A stretch of 64,000 nt of DNA from Ruegeria aquimaris (lineage in GTDB: Bacteria > Pseudomonadota > Alphaproteobacteria > Rhodobacterales > Rhodobacteraceae): positions 310,001 to 374,000 of the forward strand of contig NZ_JAOWLB010000001.1 of NCBI RefSeq assembly GCF_025751555.1. The letters are read 5' to 3'. The notes beneath the pieces were generated by a model that was not told the DNA's origin, did no database searches, and saw nothing but the letters and a program-made list of their open reading frames with translations. Position 1 is the first letter of the stretch. Each line of letters begins with the position of its first letter. This document shows, one piece after another, positions 17,342-31,425 of this stretch. A program made the position numbers and the translations under genes.

Positions 17342-18043
17342 ATGGATATCGTCGATCTCGGAACTGTGCCAAAGACGGAAGCCGTTTATTCGGACTTCCT
17401 TCTTCAATTGCGCGAAAAATTCGAGATGGACCATGCGGCCTATGCCGGCATCAATCCGGCGGCGGGCGCGATTCATGGATACGTAACCTACGGCGACGAC
17501 TGGAAGCAGCATTACCAGCAGCAAGGGTTTCACATGATCGACCCGACGCTGCATATGAGCCAACGCAGCATCGCACCGGTGGATTGGAGCCGGTTGGAAC
17601 GCGGCAAGGATTTCAAGCGTGTTTTCCGAGACGCCCATGACTTCGGTCTGAGCGAACAGGGACTTACCATTCCTGTCCGCGGCCCCTACGGTGACGTCGG
17701 GTTGCTGAGCGTGACGCGGGACTGTTCACCCGAACAATGGCGCAAACTGGTCGGCCATGTGATCAGCGACCTGCAATCCATGGCCGTCCACATTCACGAT
17801 ACCGTGATGGGATCTGACCTGCTGGGACGGATACTGTACCACCCTGCCCTTTCGACAAGAGAGGTTGAGATCCTGCAATGGGTGGCCGTCGGAAAATCCC
17901 AGCAGGATATAGGTGATATTCTTTCCATTTCCCATCGGACCGTTGAGGTTCACCTCCGGTCGTCGCGGGAAAAACTGTGCGCCCTGACAACGGCACAAGC
18001 CGTGGGACGGGCCATTGGACTGGGTTTGATTTACCCAGGCTGA
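17342..18043 (+). CDS. LuxR-type quorum-sensing regulator (AHL receptor)
   Basis: A 233-residue transcription factor expected to bind an acyl-homoserine lactone. The N-terminal domain carries the AHL-pocket residues at family spacing: W54, Y58, D67-P68, W82 and G107 in EQGLTIP. The C-terminal GerE HTH (about 168-230) shows STREVEILQWVAVGKSQQDI and SISHRTVEVHLRSSREKL. ATG 17342 with AGGT seven bases upstream fits; the frame open to 17282 overlaps the XRE gene. The AHL synthase follows 106 bp downstream. This is the arrangement of the ssb/sil-type quorum systems known in Ruegeria. I do not see a clear lux box in the gap. Confidence 0.93.
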   Translation: MDIVDLGTVPKTEAVYSDFLLQLREKFEMDHAAYAGINPAAGAIHGYVTYGDDWKQHYQQQGFHMIDPTLHMSQRSIAPVDWSRLERGKDFKRVFRDAHDFGLSEQGLTIPVRGPYGDVGLLSVTRDCSPEQWRKLVGHVISDLQSMAVHIHDTVMGSDLLGRILYHPALSTREVEILQWVAVGKSQQDIGDILSISHRTVEVHLRSSREKLCALTTAQAVGRAIGLGLIYPG

Positions 18044-18149
18044 CCCCTTTGGTCATCTTTCTGCCAAGTTCTACGGGAATCCCCCAATAGCCCGAGAGCG
18101 CGACTTGGGTAACCATTAGTGTACCAAAATCCACTCGTAGGGGGAAAAG

Positions 18150-19016
18150 ATGATCATCGTGATCGACGCTTTGAATAAGCATCTGTTCAGTGGGGTTCTG
18201 GATGAAATGTTTCGTTTGCGTGCCCGGGTATTCGGGGATCGTCTCGGTTGGAAGGTAAACATCCAGGATGGGAAGGAGATCGACGAGTTCGATCACCTAG
18301 ATCCCGCTTATGTTGTCGGGCTGGATCCGGACGGCCATGTAGTCGCCGCCGTCAGAGCCCTTCAGACCACCGGCCCGCATATGCTGGCGGATGTGTTTTC
18401 CGACATACTTTGCGGTGAACCGCCAATTCGCAGTGCGACAATGTGGGAGTCGACGCGGTTTTGCGTCGATACCCAACGCCTCAACCGTACCAAGGATCGA
18501 AACTCGGTTTCTTATGCGACATGCGAACTGATGATCGGTTCGTTGGAATACGCCCGCAAGTCCGGGATCAAGGATATCGTCACCGTCATTGACCCGGTCA
18601 TGGACCGGGTTCTGAAGCGTTCGGACAACGCACCTTATGACTATGTCGGTCAGACGGTTCCGATGGGCAAGGTCCCGGCGCTGGCCGCGCTGCTGGACAC
18701 CAGCGAAGAGAGGGTTGAAAAGGTGCGCAAGTTCGCGGGCATCTGCCACGATGTCTTTCTGAGCGATGACGAGGCGCTGGCGCTGTTCAACAAGAAGCGC
18801 GTCGTGTCCTTCCCGGAGCAAGGCAGGACAGCCAGATCCGAAACGGGGGAATTGACCGCGTTGGAAGCGTATTTCCTGGAACAGATACGTGCGGCCGACA
18901 CCGACAAGGAACTGAAGGCTGTCTATGATCTGATCGATGCCCTTCCACAGGAAATCAGCGTAGAGCGGAGATCAGTGCTGAAGAATTTCCCAGCCTCTTT
19001 GGCGCGTGAAATCTGA
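18150..19016 (+). CDS. Acyl-homoserine-lactone synthase (LuxI family)
   Basis: Makes an AHL signal from S-adenosylmethionine and an acyl carrier (acyl-ACP or acyl-CoA). All family invariants are at their standard positions: R24, F28, W34, D45, D48, R69, E100 and R103, in RARVFGDRLGW, EIDEFDHLD and WESTRFCV. The protein is 288 residues, roughly 80 longer than most LuxI enzymes. The extra C-terminal part (about 205-288) is charged and helical and has no domain that I recognise. A GGGGG ribosome site precedes the ATG. It is paired with the luxR gene upstream and ends before a shared terminator with tig. Confidence 0.93.
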   Translation: MIIVIDALNKHLFSGVLDEMFRLRARVFGDRLGWKVNIQDGKEIDEFDHLDPAYVVGLDPDGHVVAAVRALQTTGPHMLADVFSDILCGEPPIRSATMWESTRFCVDTQRLNRTKDRNSVSYATCELMIGSLEYARKSGIKDIVTVIDPVMDRVLKRSDNAPYDYVGQTVPMGKVPALAALLDTSEERVEKVRKFAGICHDVFLSDDEALALFNKKRVVSFPEQGRTARSETGELTALEAYFLEQIRAADTDKELKAVYDLIDALPQEISVERRSVLKNFPASLAREI

Positions 19017-26366: not shown

Positions 26367-28142
26367 TCAGGCTGGCAGCTCGTCGAGCGCGTCGAGAACG
26401 ATATCCGGACGCTCGTAGATCAGGAACTGACCAACCCCATCCAGCACCCGGAATGTGACATTGGGCCGGGTTTTGGCGAACTCCTCTGCCACCCCGACGG
26501 GCACCACCGGATCCAGCGCGCCATGCAGATGGATCACCGGCTTTGCCTTGCTGGACAAGGGCGACACCCAGTCCGAGACCATGACCCGCGCATCGCTGAC
26601 AAAGCCGTCGGTTCCGGCCTGCGCCGCAAACCGATAGCCCGCATGCATCAGTTCGGCCAGGTTCAGACGCGCCACCACGTCGCGTTCATGAGTGCCGGGT
26701 GGGTATAGGGCGTCCATAAAGGTCTGCACCTCTTCGCTGTCGATCAGCGAAATGGCCGCCCGCACGAAAAACGGCAACAGGCTTGGTGTCCAGCGCGCGG
26801 TATAGCCCATGACCCGTTGCCTGCGTGCCATGCCCCGGAAATGCTCGCGGCGCAACAGCGGTCCGCTGCCCGCCACCGCGACCATGCCGCGAATACGCGG
26901 GTCGCCGCCGGCGCAGATCGTGTGCCCCTGCACGACGCCGGCCATATGCCCCAGGATCGCCGCGCGCCCGAGATCGAACCGGTCCATCAACTCGCCAATG
27001 TGTTCGGACATGGCGCGCAGAGCGGCACCGGGATCGGTCACCGGCTCCGAACTCCCGTATCCCGGACGCACCGGCGCCAGAATCCGCAAGCCGCGACGGT
27101 GTAACCGGTCCTTGAGATACTGCAACGGCGCCAGGCCATCCATCATGCCATGCAGATAGATCACCGGTCGGCCCTTGGGGTCACCGCACTGATAGAGCTG
27201 CATCTTGCGGCCGGTACGCATCTCCAGCACTTCGTTGTTCAGTTCGACGGCACCGGGATGCCCGTTGGTCCGCAGCTGATTCCCGCGCTCGATCAGAAAG
27301 GCAACCAGACGGATCAGATCCGCCTGCCCGGGGGCGCCGGTCTTGGCCAGCACCGATTTCGCCTGATTGCGCACCGTGTGCTCGGACCGGTTTGAACGTT
27401 GGGCGATCTCGCGCAGGCTGTGCCCCTCCATCAGGTTGCGCACGATATCCACCTCGGCCGGGGACAGCCCGAACGACGTCACCAGCATCCGCTCGGCGGC
27501 GGGCGTCCATTGATAGTCGAGGCTTTCGATCATGATTTGGCCCGACCCATCGTCGCATGGGCCCATGCGCGCGATCAGGTGCCGGGGCCGCATATCCGTG
27601 CTCAAGACCACGGCCTGCGTCTGATCCCGCCCATCACGCGCCGCCTGCAACAGCTCGTCGAGCATCTGCATGCTCTGCACTGGCAGGTGCGCCCTGAGTG
27701 CAGAAATATCTCGTGGATTATCAAGAAGTTGCCGCACCAATCGTCCCGCGGCCCTGACCCGACCATCGACGCCCATGAGCAAAACGAAACCCGGCGCGCC
27801 GTTGATACAGCGTTCCATTTCGGATTGCGGCGCCTTGCGCCCCAGCTGTTCGAGAATGACATGGGCCCGGCGGAAATGGTCTTGCAACTCGGGATCAACC
27901 CGCACCTCGGCCGCCGAACGCTGCTCGCCGGAATTGGAGAAATCTCCCCTGTCCCGCAGGAGGTATGACAGGTGATCGTCCCACACCGATACCACACGCT
28001 CATAGTGATCGGGCCGCAATACGATTTCGTAGATCGCGGCGATCACCTGCTCTCTGGTCGGAGTCGCATGGGTTCCGAAATCGTCGCGAATAATGAGCCT
28101 CCCAAACACGGTATTGGGGACCGGTTTCGACATATTGGTCAT
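26367..28142 (-). CDS. LuxR-type HTH regulator fused to a degenerate alpha/beta-hydrolase domain
   Basis: A 591-residue protein of unusual build. Residues 1-210 include a PAS-like region (about 110-205). Residues 222-285 are a LuxR/GerE HTH (LSPAEVDIVRNLMEGHSLREIA and SEHTVRNQAKSVLAKTGA). Residues about 310-590 are an alpha/beta hydrolase with the oxyanion motif YLHG (329-332). The nucleophile elbow reads GHMAG (398-402), so the Ser is Met400. The acid is kept (D544 in HGALDPVVP), but the catalytic His position reads GVGQFL, with Gln572. Two of three triad residues are therefore missing and hydrolysis is unlikely. The fold may bind a small molecule and control the HTH, as inactive hydrolase folds do in plant hormone receptors. 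The target genes are unknown. Confidence 0.85.
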   Translation of the reverse strand: MTNMSKPVPNTVFGRLIIRDDFGTHATPTREQVIAAIYEIVLRPDHYERVVSVWDDHLSYLLRDRGDFSNSGEQRSAAEVRVDPELQDHFRRAHVILEQLGRKAPQSEMERCINGAPGFVLLMGVDGRVRAAGRLVRQLLDNPRDISALRAHLPVQSMQMLDELLQAARDGRDQTQAVVLSTDMRPRHLIARMGPCDDGSGQIMIESLDYQWTPAAERMLVTSFGLSPAEVDIVRNLMEGHSLREIAQRSNRSEHTVRNQAKSVLAKTGAPGQADLIRLVAFLIERGNQLRTNGHPGAVELNNEVLEMRTGRKMQLYQCGDPKGRPVIYLHGMMDGLAPLQYLKDRLHRRGLRILAPVRPGYGSSEPVTDPGAALRAMSEHIGELMDRFDLGRAAILGHMAGVVQGHTICAGGDPRIRGMVAVAGSGPLLRREHFRGMARRQRVMGYTARWTPSLLPFFVRAAISLIDSEEVQTFMDALYPPGTHERDVVARLNLAELMHAGYRFAAQAGTDGFVSDARVMVSDWVSPLSSKAKPVIHLHGALDPVVPVGVAEEFAKTRPNVTFRVLDGVGQFLIYERPDIVLDALDELPA

Positions 28143-28326
28143 CCTTGCGACAGCTTGGACAACCCCTTTAACACACTAATGATAAGAATAACCCAAATGG
28201 GTCATGCGGCAAGCGCCCAGCGCATGCCAGAACGTTACTTACCGTTCAGTGAGTGAGTGGTGTTTTCATCAAGTCGCGTTTGCCTGCCCTTCTCCAAGAG
28301 CGGCAGGCAGCCATTCTTTCCCGTCA

Positions 28327-28351
28327 GCCGCCCCGTGTAACACGGGGCGGC
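28327..28351 (-). terminator. Hairpin after the cation efflux gene
   Basis: GCCGCCCCGTG (28327-28337) pairs perfectly with CACGGGGCGGC (28341-28351) around TAA, about 17 nt past the stop of the minus-strand cation efflux gene. The T-run is poor, so its strength is uncertain. Confidence 0.6.
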
Positions 28352-30651: not shown

Positions 30652-31425
30652 ATGCAAAACATCAGCAAATTTGCCCTCGATCTGCTTGAGAGCCTGTCTT
30701 ACCTGTTCGACGATGCCGAACGCTGGGATCACGCGGTCGAGCGGCTGGGCGCATTCGGCTTTCGCGCCGTGAACATGGGGCAGTTCACGCCAAAGACGGG
30801 CATCCTGCACTGGGCGCGCAGCTCGATGACGCCGCAATGGCTGAAGATCTATGCCGAGGGTGGTTATTCCGATGCCGATCTGGTTCTGGCGCAGACGGTA
30901 CAGGGGCCCGACAGCCTGTATATCGATTCGGGCCGGCGTCTGTTGCAATCCAACTCGGCCACGGCGACGGCGCTTTATTCCGGGCTGGTCGAGCACGGCT
31001 ATCAGCATGTGTTCAGCCTGGTGGTCCCCTGCCCCGGCAATACCGCAATGCTGGTGGCGCTGTTCACCGATCATGCCGAGGCCGAAAGCTGGATGACCGA
31101 ACAGGAAAGCGGCATGCGCATCCTGGCCACCGTTCTGGCCACCAATCTTGGCCCCGGGGTCGAAGAAAGCCAGACCGCGGGTCACGATCTGGCGCCGATC
31201 CTGGGCACCACCGCGCCGCTGTCGCGCCGCGAGCGCGAGGTGCTGCACCTGCTGGCCAACGGTCTGCGCAACGAGCAGATTTCGGAGACGCTGGGGATCA
31301 GCGAGATCACCGTGCGCACGCATCTGAAATCGGCGCGCGACAAGCTACGCGCTCCGACCCGCGAGGCGGCGCTGGTGCGGGCGGTGAAAATGGGGCTGCT
31401 GAGCGAGCCCACCTATCGGAAGTGA
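30652..31425 (+). CDS. LuxR-type regulator with AHL-receptor-like domain (solo)
   Basis: A 257-residue regulator. The N-terminal domain shows part of the AHL pocket at correct spacing: W63, Y67 and D76 in PQWLKIYAEGGYSDADLVL; the following residue is Leu where receptors usually have Pro. The C-terminal HTH (about 189-250) contains LSRREREVLHLLANGLRNEQI and SEITVRTHLKSARDKL. No luxI gene is adjacent, so it is a LuxR solo that may sense the AHL made by the synthase at 18150 or another ligand. It is followed by an intrinsic terminator. Confidence 0.86.
   Translation: MQNISKFALDLLESLSYLFDDAERWDHAVERLGAFGFRAVNMGQFTPKTGILHWARSSMTPQWLKIYAEGGYSDADLVLAQTVQGPDSLYIDSGRRLLQSNSATATALYSGLVEHGYQHVFSLVVPCPGNTAMLVALFTDHAEAESWMTEQESGMRILATVLATNLGPGVEESQTAGHDLAPILGTTAPLSRREREVLHLLANGLRNEQISETLGISEITVRTHLKSARDKLRAPTREAALVRAVKMGLLSEPTYRK

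Follow-up and report, generated by a model that had tools for sequence, protein, structure and literature searches.

The locus and the domain order of the fusion protein

The 64,000-nucleotide stretch of Ruegeria aquimaris DNA considered here (the window) carries on its minus strand, at 26367..28142, a gene for a 591-residue protein in which an N-terminal region, a LuxR/GerE-type helix-turn-helix (HTH) and an alpha/beta-hydrolase domain without catalytic Ser and His follow one another in that order, as read from the open reading frame (ORF) listing and Pfam. The HTH (residues 226-279; 27306..27467, minus strand, as for every part of the gene given below) matches PF00196 with 25.6 bits against a cut-off of 23.5, and the hydrolase domain (residues 326-579; 26406..27167) matches PF00561 Abhydrolase_1 at E 1.1e-10, its 42.0 bits standing above a cut-off of 25.8, and aligns with 9wlv at E 3.5e-12. 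With both Pfam profiles above cut-off, the fusion of a LuxR-type HTH to an alpha/beta-hydrolase, proposed in a preliminary description of this DNA, is borne out. The hydrolase domain stands C-terminal to the HTH, which is normally placed last in regulators of the LuxR type. The HTH itself can be aligned with those of the solved proteins RcsB (E 2.1e-5), PdeL (7pk5, E 0.019) and NarL (E 0.86), and Pfam gives no receiver-domain match anywhere in the protein.

Two further parts were delimited by hand. Residues 431-530 (26553..26852) form a cap region within the hydrolase domain, whose motif M..RQR...YTAR..P.LLP extends, in the alignment of homologues, to a common M..RQR...YTAR..P.LLP..LRAGI. Residues 116-210 (27513..27797) are possibly PAS-like: the window protein itself has no Pfam match to a PAS profile, and some relatives do have PAS matches N-terminal to the HTH (PAS_4 at E 2.5e-5 in L025, weaker ones in L028-L031) that fall at about the equivalent place. 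A second fusion of this kind was not found in the 5.04-Mb genome from which the window comes, which returned partial matches to HTH or hydrolase genes only.

Loss of the catalytic serine and histidine

The phmmer alignment with 9wlv lays the window's GHMAG on GWSGG, and so places Met400 (codon 26943..26945) on the nucleophilic Ser; it likewise places Asp544 (26511..26513) on the catalytic acid and Gln572 (26427..26429), the GQ of the window protein against a GH, on the catalytic His. The absence of the Ser and His that the preliminary description had noted is thus confirmed, and to it can be added that the catalytic Asp is still in place. An orthologue with 90% identity, from another genome of the genus (G003), has identical residues at all triad positions, and the clade of the window protein (24 rows; support of 89 in the Shimodaira-Hasegawa-like approximate likelihood ratio test, SH-aLRT) contains Ser or His at the respective positions in 0 of 24 rows. 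A sequencing accident is excluded on these two grounds. Across the clade, position 400 is Met in 15 rows, Leu in 5, Arg in 3 and Ile in 1, position 544 is Asp in 24 of 24, and position 572 is Gln in 21 of 24; the combinations at 400-544-572 are M-D-Q (15), L-D-Q (5), I-D-Q (1), R-D-A (2) and R-D-T (1). The three rows without Gln572 make up one subclade in which both positions changed together, Arg400 going with Ala or Thr572. Widening the set to the next node of the tree (26 rows, support 88) brings in one L-D-Q and one V-N-H protein, the latter (L123) having the His and no Ser.

Tabulating the triad over homologues had been suggested in the preliminary description, which named intact triads in close homologues as the observation that would speak against a receptor. 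Both residues are gone from every row of the clade, and Ser-Asp-His occurs in distant fusions only. Among 106 fusions tabulated, neither Ser nor His is present in 80, His alone in 10, Ser alone in 10 and both in 6; of the six intact Ser-Asp-His proteins, five belong to family f188, which lies in another class, and the sixth, L099, to the class of the window. (The 106 derive from 111 aligned fusions after removal of five duplicate loci before the tree was made; a broken copy, L051, and a fragment, L078, were excluded from the homologue set, and full-length matches without a locus stand outside the 106, as does L091, whose V, D, Q triad was read from L258.) A further 19 ORFs fetched later, 18 of them new and one, the second ORF of L258, being the L091 row, show Ser-Asp-His in 3 of 19, including L257 from the window's own bacterial family. 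Three stand-alone hydrolases also carry intact triads in the alignment.

The triad table across the clade and the wider fusions indicates that the loss is old and common to the clade, and not a slip in one genome. Since distant fusions and the three stand-alone hydrolases keep intact triads, the clade probably descends from active enzyme-regulators, the dead form being derived; the tree behind this is a quick one, weak in its deep branches and without an inferred root. In a second large clade of 36 rows, L033 among them, most proteins have Gly at the Ser place (30 of 36) and Gln at the His place (31 of 36), and the clade possesses its own set of conserved aromatic residues. Outside both clades, six fusions (L095, L096, L097, L125, L074 and L092) combine Asp at the nucleophile position with His (five D-S-H, one D-D-H), an arrangement which we take to resemble the nucleophiles of epoxide hydrolases or dehalogenases; these proteins are possibly active regulators of another chemistry. 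One member, also outside both clades, has Cys at the nucleophile place together with the His.

Might the domain of the window's clade still be catalytic, using another nucleophile or none, for example as a lyase- or acyltransferase-like enzyme acting through Asp544 and His399? Asp544 is invariant and His399 is found in 20 of the 24 clade rows, and alpha/beta-hydrolases that act without Ser do exist, as PMC11878206 describes. The carboxy-lyases treated there, however, use a D/E-H dyad, whereas the catalytic His is lost here as well, and His399 is replaced by Asn or Gln in the remaining 4 rows. We regard residual catalysis of this kind as most improbable.

Selection on the catalytically dead domain

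The dead hydrolase domain is under purifying selection. In the comparison with the 90%-identical orthologue, the ratio of nonsynonymous to synonymous substitution rates (dN/dS) amounts to 0.078 in the hydrolase domain and 0.027 in its cap, with 0.055 in the HTH and 0.166 in the PAS-like part. Against the next two orthologues it rises to 0.167 (L013) and 0.262 (L014) for the domain and to 0.098 and 0.22 for the cap, and in more distant comparisons the synonymous sites approach saturation. That the cap is especially constrained is evident from the closest orthologue alone, because over the 24-row clade its mean conservation (0.514) equals that of the first core part of the domain (0.514).

Should one then regard the domain as a decaying relic without function? 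In its favour, the gene has been lost by internal deletion in one genus-mate (G001), and matches are present in only some of the genomes of the family, at least 65 of 295 with the window's own included. Such a reading is, on the other hand, largely refuted by the dN/dS of 0.03-0.22 over the parts of the domain against the closest orthologue, and all 24 rows retain an open frame that runs through HTH and hydrolase, the others being 23-90% identical to the window protein. We find the relic scarcely credible, and a pseudogene very unlikely.

Conservation is also uneven within the domain. Fifteen hand-picked active-site positions have a mean conservation of 0.726 over the 24-row clade, against 0.508 for the domain, and are thus above the domain average, as the pocket check proposed in the preliminary description anticipated for a receptor; random sets reached 0.726 in 0 of 20,000 draws, or in 2 of 20,000 when Gly and Pro were left out. 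A ligand pocket in the dead domain is, from this pattern, plausible.

These same data bear on the idea that the hydrolase domain is a structural, dimerisation or docking module, with the N-terminal region doing the sensing or with no ligand at all, in a protein that would still regulate its own gene as discussed below. The PAS matches in some members fit such a division of labour, as do four related open frames of 352-428 residues (L105-L108) that consist of the N-terminal region and the HTH with no hydrolase match, so that this pair can occur alone; the cap, as the most constrained part against the closest orthologue, would suit a protein interface equally well. Against this, positions His331, His399, Asp544 and Gln572 rank 1, 12, 11 and 31 in conservation among 285, and no part of the protein is less conserved than the PAS-like region. 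A purely structural role therefore seems doubtful to us, if clearly less so than the relic or the residual enzyme, and a receptor function of the dead domain is the likely one.

A palindrome that travels with the gene

Four members of the genus, when compared, show two strictly conserved blocks in an otherwise drifting upstream DNA. One of these, TGACCCA-TT-TGGGTTA (28189-28204), is the imperfect palindrome at the heart of the candidate self-operator CATGACCCATTTGGGTTA (28189..28206, minus strand), which lies directly upstream of the fusion gene, has the consensus CATGACCCAWWTGGGTYA and is found in the window and in 11 of 11 inner orthologues. The proteins of these orthologues are 42-90% identical to that of the window, and their sites differ from TGACCCANNTGGGTCA by 0-2 mismatches. 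Out of 345 upstream 16-mers the best conserved is CATGACCCATTTGGGT, with 11 mismatches summed over the 11 orthologues against a median of 65; the lowest sum in 30 shuffles, every second position being tried, was 60. The gene is convergent beside lipB in ten of the 11 inner genomes, and in the remaining one (G140), where lipB is on another contig, the palindrome is still upstream of the gene. Farther out, L155 (34% identical protein) has the palindrome with 3 mismatches, and by comparison with TGACCCANNTGGGTCA it is absent upstream in seven other neighbourhoods (L156-L162).

A de novo comparison within the distant f188 group yielded the same kind of element, for example TCCCCCATATGGGGTA, and related palindromes precede some distant fusions, some of these with intact triads. 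The exact CCCANNTGGG occurs upstream in 16 of the 106 members (33.8 kb), compared with 23 sites in the control DNA (306 kb, coding and downstream). When a matrix was trained on the inner 12 sequences only, which makes for a clean test even though the sites it was run on had been seen beforehand, 6 of 91 other scored members stood above all 2,678 controls and 2 more were reached by one control. A wider matrix placed 25 of 103 scored members above all 721 controls (3 of the 106 have too little upstream DNA), and of the 10 later-fetched ORFs, out of 19, with enough upstream DNA, 4 have a site reached by 0 of 200 shuffles; the matrices behind these last two results include distant sites.

A search of 18 genomes, selected because they have the gene or a remnant of it, with the 19-bp CATNNCCCAWWTGGGNYAA gave 27 matches at no more than one mismatch, compared with 6 for the reversed control; 16 of the 27 are at the fusion gene, including all 7 without a mismatch, and one of these 16 sits at the decayed G001 copy. 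The sites at the gene in G041 and G730 fall outside this limit, with more than one mismatch to CATNNCCCAWWTGGGNYAA.

Binding by the protein, by another regulator, or an RNA hairpin

Half-sites about a two-base centre are the kind expected for a GerE dimer, and we infer that the fusion protein binds the palindrome in its own promoter and so regulates itself directly. The presumed recognition helix EHTVRNQAK (residues 254-262; 27357..27383) offers some evidence on the protein side, in that the base at operator position 4 (G or C) corresponds to the type of residue 259 (Asn, or else Ala, Ser or Thr) in 25 of 25 operator-bearing members and agrees likewise with residue 254 (Glu or other) in 25 of 25. 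In NarL, residues at and around this place touch bases.

Alternatively, the palindrome could be bound by another regulator or form an RNA hairpin in the leader, in which case the protein need not regulate itself; either would be compatible with the other accounts of the hydrolase domain given above. A terminator scan does list the window palindrome as a stem followed by T, a short ATG frame begins inside it in the 12 inner sequences, and pair 5-16 appears as A-T, C-G and G-C, as a hairpin would allow. Set against this, the A and T beside the centre are kept in 23 of 25 sites, though in RNA they would be loop positions, and pairs are broken even with G-U allowed at 6-15 in 5, at 5-16 in 6 and at 4-17 in 11 of the 25. 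The conserved central A and T and the broken pairs together make the hairpin less likely. The short frame, moreover, is lost in distant sites that have CATC instead of CATG, and the palindrome stays with the gene where that lies elsewhere (G140) and recurs before distant relatives. We therefore hold a different binder or a hairpin to be unlikely; self-regulation, common to the intact and the dead versions of the protein, would be the simplest account of the palindrome.

Other upstream features and neighbours

The second conserved upstream block, CACTCACTCACTGAACGGTA (28240..28259, minus strand), is identical in the window and the 3 of 3 intact genus orthologues, has 1 and 3 mismatches in two orthologues from two more genera, and was not found in further inner orthologues at up to 4 mismatches. 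Between the cation-efflux gene and the fusion gene a GC-rich inverted repeat was read from the sequence at 28327..28351 (no strand assigned). It is a possible terminator with counterparts in three genus orthologues, and the terminator scan does not list it. One locus, L258 (genome G419), has two different fusion genes in tandem on one strand, one of them with a variant operator, CATCACCAATTTTGGGTA.

Genes for HIT, cation-efflux, LipB and DsbA-like proteins recur beside the fusion gene in the inner group, none with an obvious functional tie to it. In 3 of 8 other neighbourhoods (L158-L160) it adjoins an IalB-like gene, and in 3 of 8 it is divergent to a very large ORF (L156 831-7874, L158 9849-17699, L160 9822-17681), of which that in L156 carries RTX repeats, that in L160 a TPS secretion domain, and that in L158 has no Pfam hit. 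In these mid-distance relatives the arrangement could indicate control of a surface or secreted protein, as a lead only, and the large ORFs and the IalB-like genes are possible targets. In the window's own genome the operator pattern has 32 sites at up to two mismatches, against 7 for the reversed pattern. Of the 31 sites other than that at the gene itself, 14 were viewed, of which 13 fall within an ORF, as crudely called, and 1 falls between ORFs, and at least two recur in G001. One two-mismatch site, TGTCACATTTGGGTCA (L196, about 1520; G000 C33:270019), has a G001 counterpart (L201, about 1476) between two ORFs, and is a weak candidate for a second target.

The fusion gene is present in 4 of 5 genomes of the genus, counting the window's own, and its family spans at least two classes of one phylum; because the searches at the level of family, class and phylum scored 3-4 candidates per genome, presence counts at these levels are lower bounds. 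The genus-mate G001 retains a decayed copy (L163 8664-8990) between lipB and an efflux gene, of which the start, recognised by eye, and the end remain, the middle having been deleted; both conserved upstream blocks, the palindrome included, are kept.

The question of the ligand

The preliminary description had taken a lactone, in a genome with N-acyl homoserine lactone (AHL) signalling, as an obvious candidate ligand, and for AHL we find no specific support. AHL synthase matches are present in 12 of 12 inner-group genomes, that of the window included, so that their presence there is uninformative, and also in G001, which has no working copy of the fusion; they are lacking in all 4 genomes sampled from the distant group with the same operator type, and none was found in G225 or G028. 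Autoind_bind (PF03472), which is present in the neighbouring regulator at 30652-31425, has no match in the fusion protein up to E 1. Membership of the fusion among the AHL-binding LuxR proteins of the quorum-sensing type is excluded on that account.

An AHL ligand is conceivable all the same, for the window contains several LuxR-type genes and, at 18195-18725 (C11:328195-328725), a strong match to AHL synthase. The latter is preceded by a match to a LuxR-type HTH at 17846-18004, about 8 kb from the fusion gene, and the two (17846-18725) are likely a luxR-luxI pair. The regulator at 30652-31425 (plus strand) comprises Autoind_bind and GerE, with no AHL synthase match beside it, and is a possible LuxR solo.

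A regulator with a former enzyme as its probable switch

Taken as a whole, our account is that of a self-regulating one-component factor, to which we assign a probability of about 0.6. The transcription factor would bind the palindrome in its own promoter and regulate its own gene; its C-terminal hydrolase domain, stemming from an active enzyme-regulator, would have lost catalysis and been kept as a ligand-binding, or possibly partner-binding, switch; and this switch would control the dimerisation or the DNA binding of the LuxR-type HTH. The one-component sensor of the preliminary description thus survives as a putative DNA-binding protein whose dead hydrolase is kept by selection, without the AHL or lactone as its ligand. 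We infer further that a small molecule would occupy the former active site, and that the dead form is the derived one.

Several observations weigh against this account. Most members have no recognisable operator, only the 25 of 103 mentioned above scoring over all controls, and 0 of the 36 rows of the second large clade are among those 25; attempts with 20 and with 10 members of that clade produced no convincing upstream palindrome. The palindrome is itself imperfect, pair 4-17 being symmetric in 7 and pair 5-16 in 19 of 25 sites, and the agreement between operator and recognition helix follows the tree and may be one event. On the side of the hydrolase domain, several of the 15 picked positions are conserved in hydrolases generally, and positions 400 and 572 on their own are unexceptional, 1,542 of 20,000 random pairs reaching their level. 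Finally, no certain target beyond the gene's own promoter was found among the 31 other sites of the window's genome, 14 of them viewed, and the gene is dispensable, as only its start and end remain in the one genus-mate where it has decayed.

One may go a step beyond the self-regulating switch and suggest, at somewhat less than even odds, how it arose. An ancestral active hydrolase-regulator would have destroyed its own ligand, as PdeL does; in the Rhodobacteraceae this would have given way to a dead hydrolase that only reads the ligand, with the self-operator CCCAWWTGGG kept. Such a protein would be a bacterial counterpart of the plant hormone receptors with a hydrolase fold, carrying its HTH in the same chain.

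Two of these observations are new, namely the candidate self-operator and the relatives with an intact triad. Regulators with a former enzyme as their sensor are known singly, and the present fusions look like a whole family, in which intact, half-lost and fully lost triads coexist, all joined to one kind of HTH and some of them to one kind of operator as well. With such a family the transition from enzyme to receptor could be tested directly: if our account is true, active and dead forms of a single sensor are available for comparison on DNA sites of one type, and the 18-bp site is a ready assay, by electrophoretic mobility shift or reporter, for a ligand search. The fusion character is easily missed: in 25 of the 44 plasmid records, apart from one that is unannotated, relatives are annotated either as a hydrolase or as a LuxR-type regulator.

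Comparison with known systems

We found no description of a LuxR-HTH/dead-hydrolase fusion in the open-licence papers searched, and PMC11878206 mentions neither LuxR nor helix-turn-helix nor GID1 in its main text.

Known proteins share single traits with the fusion. The plant gibberellin receptor GID1 is an alpha/beta-hydrolase fold turned receptor with one catalytic residue lost, and it acts by ligand-dependent protein binding and not as a DNA-binding protein; the window protein, by contrast, has lost both Ser and His and carries an HTH in the same chain. In Bacillus subtilis, RsbQ, an alpha/beta-hydrolase that keeps its triad, and the PAS protein RsbP are two separate proteins with a phosphatase output; the likeness to the fusion, with its possibly PAS-like region, is that a single signalling route employs both an alpha/beta-hydrolase and a PAS domain. 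The LuxR-type AHL receptors, of which the neighbour at 30652-31425 is an example, have in common with it the GerE-type HTH and the one-component layout, whereas the fusion is without Autoind_bind and its HTH is not C-terminal. With proteins of the NarL/RcsB type it shares an alignable HTH and a palindromic candidate site with a two-base centre; it differs from them in having no receiver match and in its half-sites, ACCCA-N2-TGGGT, which are unlike the NarL spacing.

The nearest worked example is the trigger phosphodiesterase PdeL (YahA) of Escherichia coli. PdeL carries its enzyme domain behind a LuxR-type HTH, binds its own promoter at an imperfect palindrome, and thereby controls its own expression, the signal being the ligand of the enzyme (PMC5052742). 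The window protein likewise has its HTH (226-279) N-terminal to an enzyme-type domain (326-579), and a conserved palindrome, the candidate operator, precedes its gene. PdeL is, however, an active EAL phosphodiesterase with cyclic di-GMP (c-di-GMP) as its ligand, whereas the window protein has an alpha/beta-hydrolase fold without Ser and His and an extra N-terminal region. Degenerate, enzymatically inactive GGDEF/EAL domains also act as c-di-GMP effectors, according to the same review (PMC5052742), and the window protein would, by analogy, combine the scheme of PdeL with the idea of the degenerate effector on a different fold.

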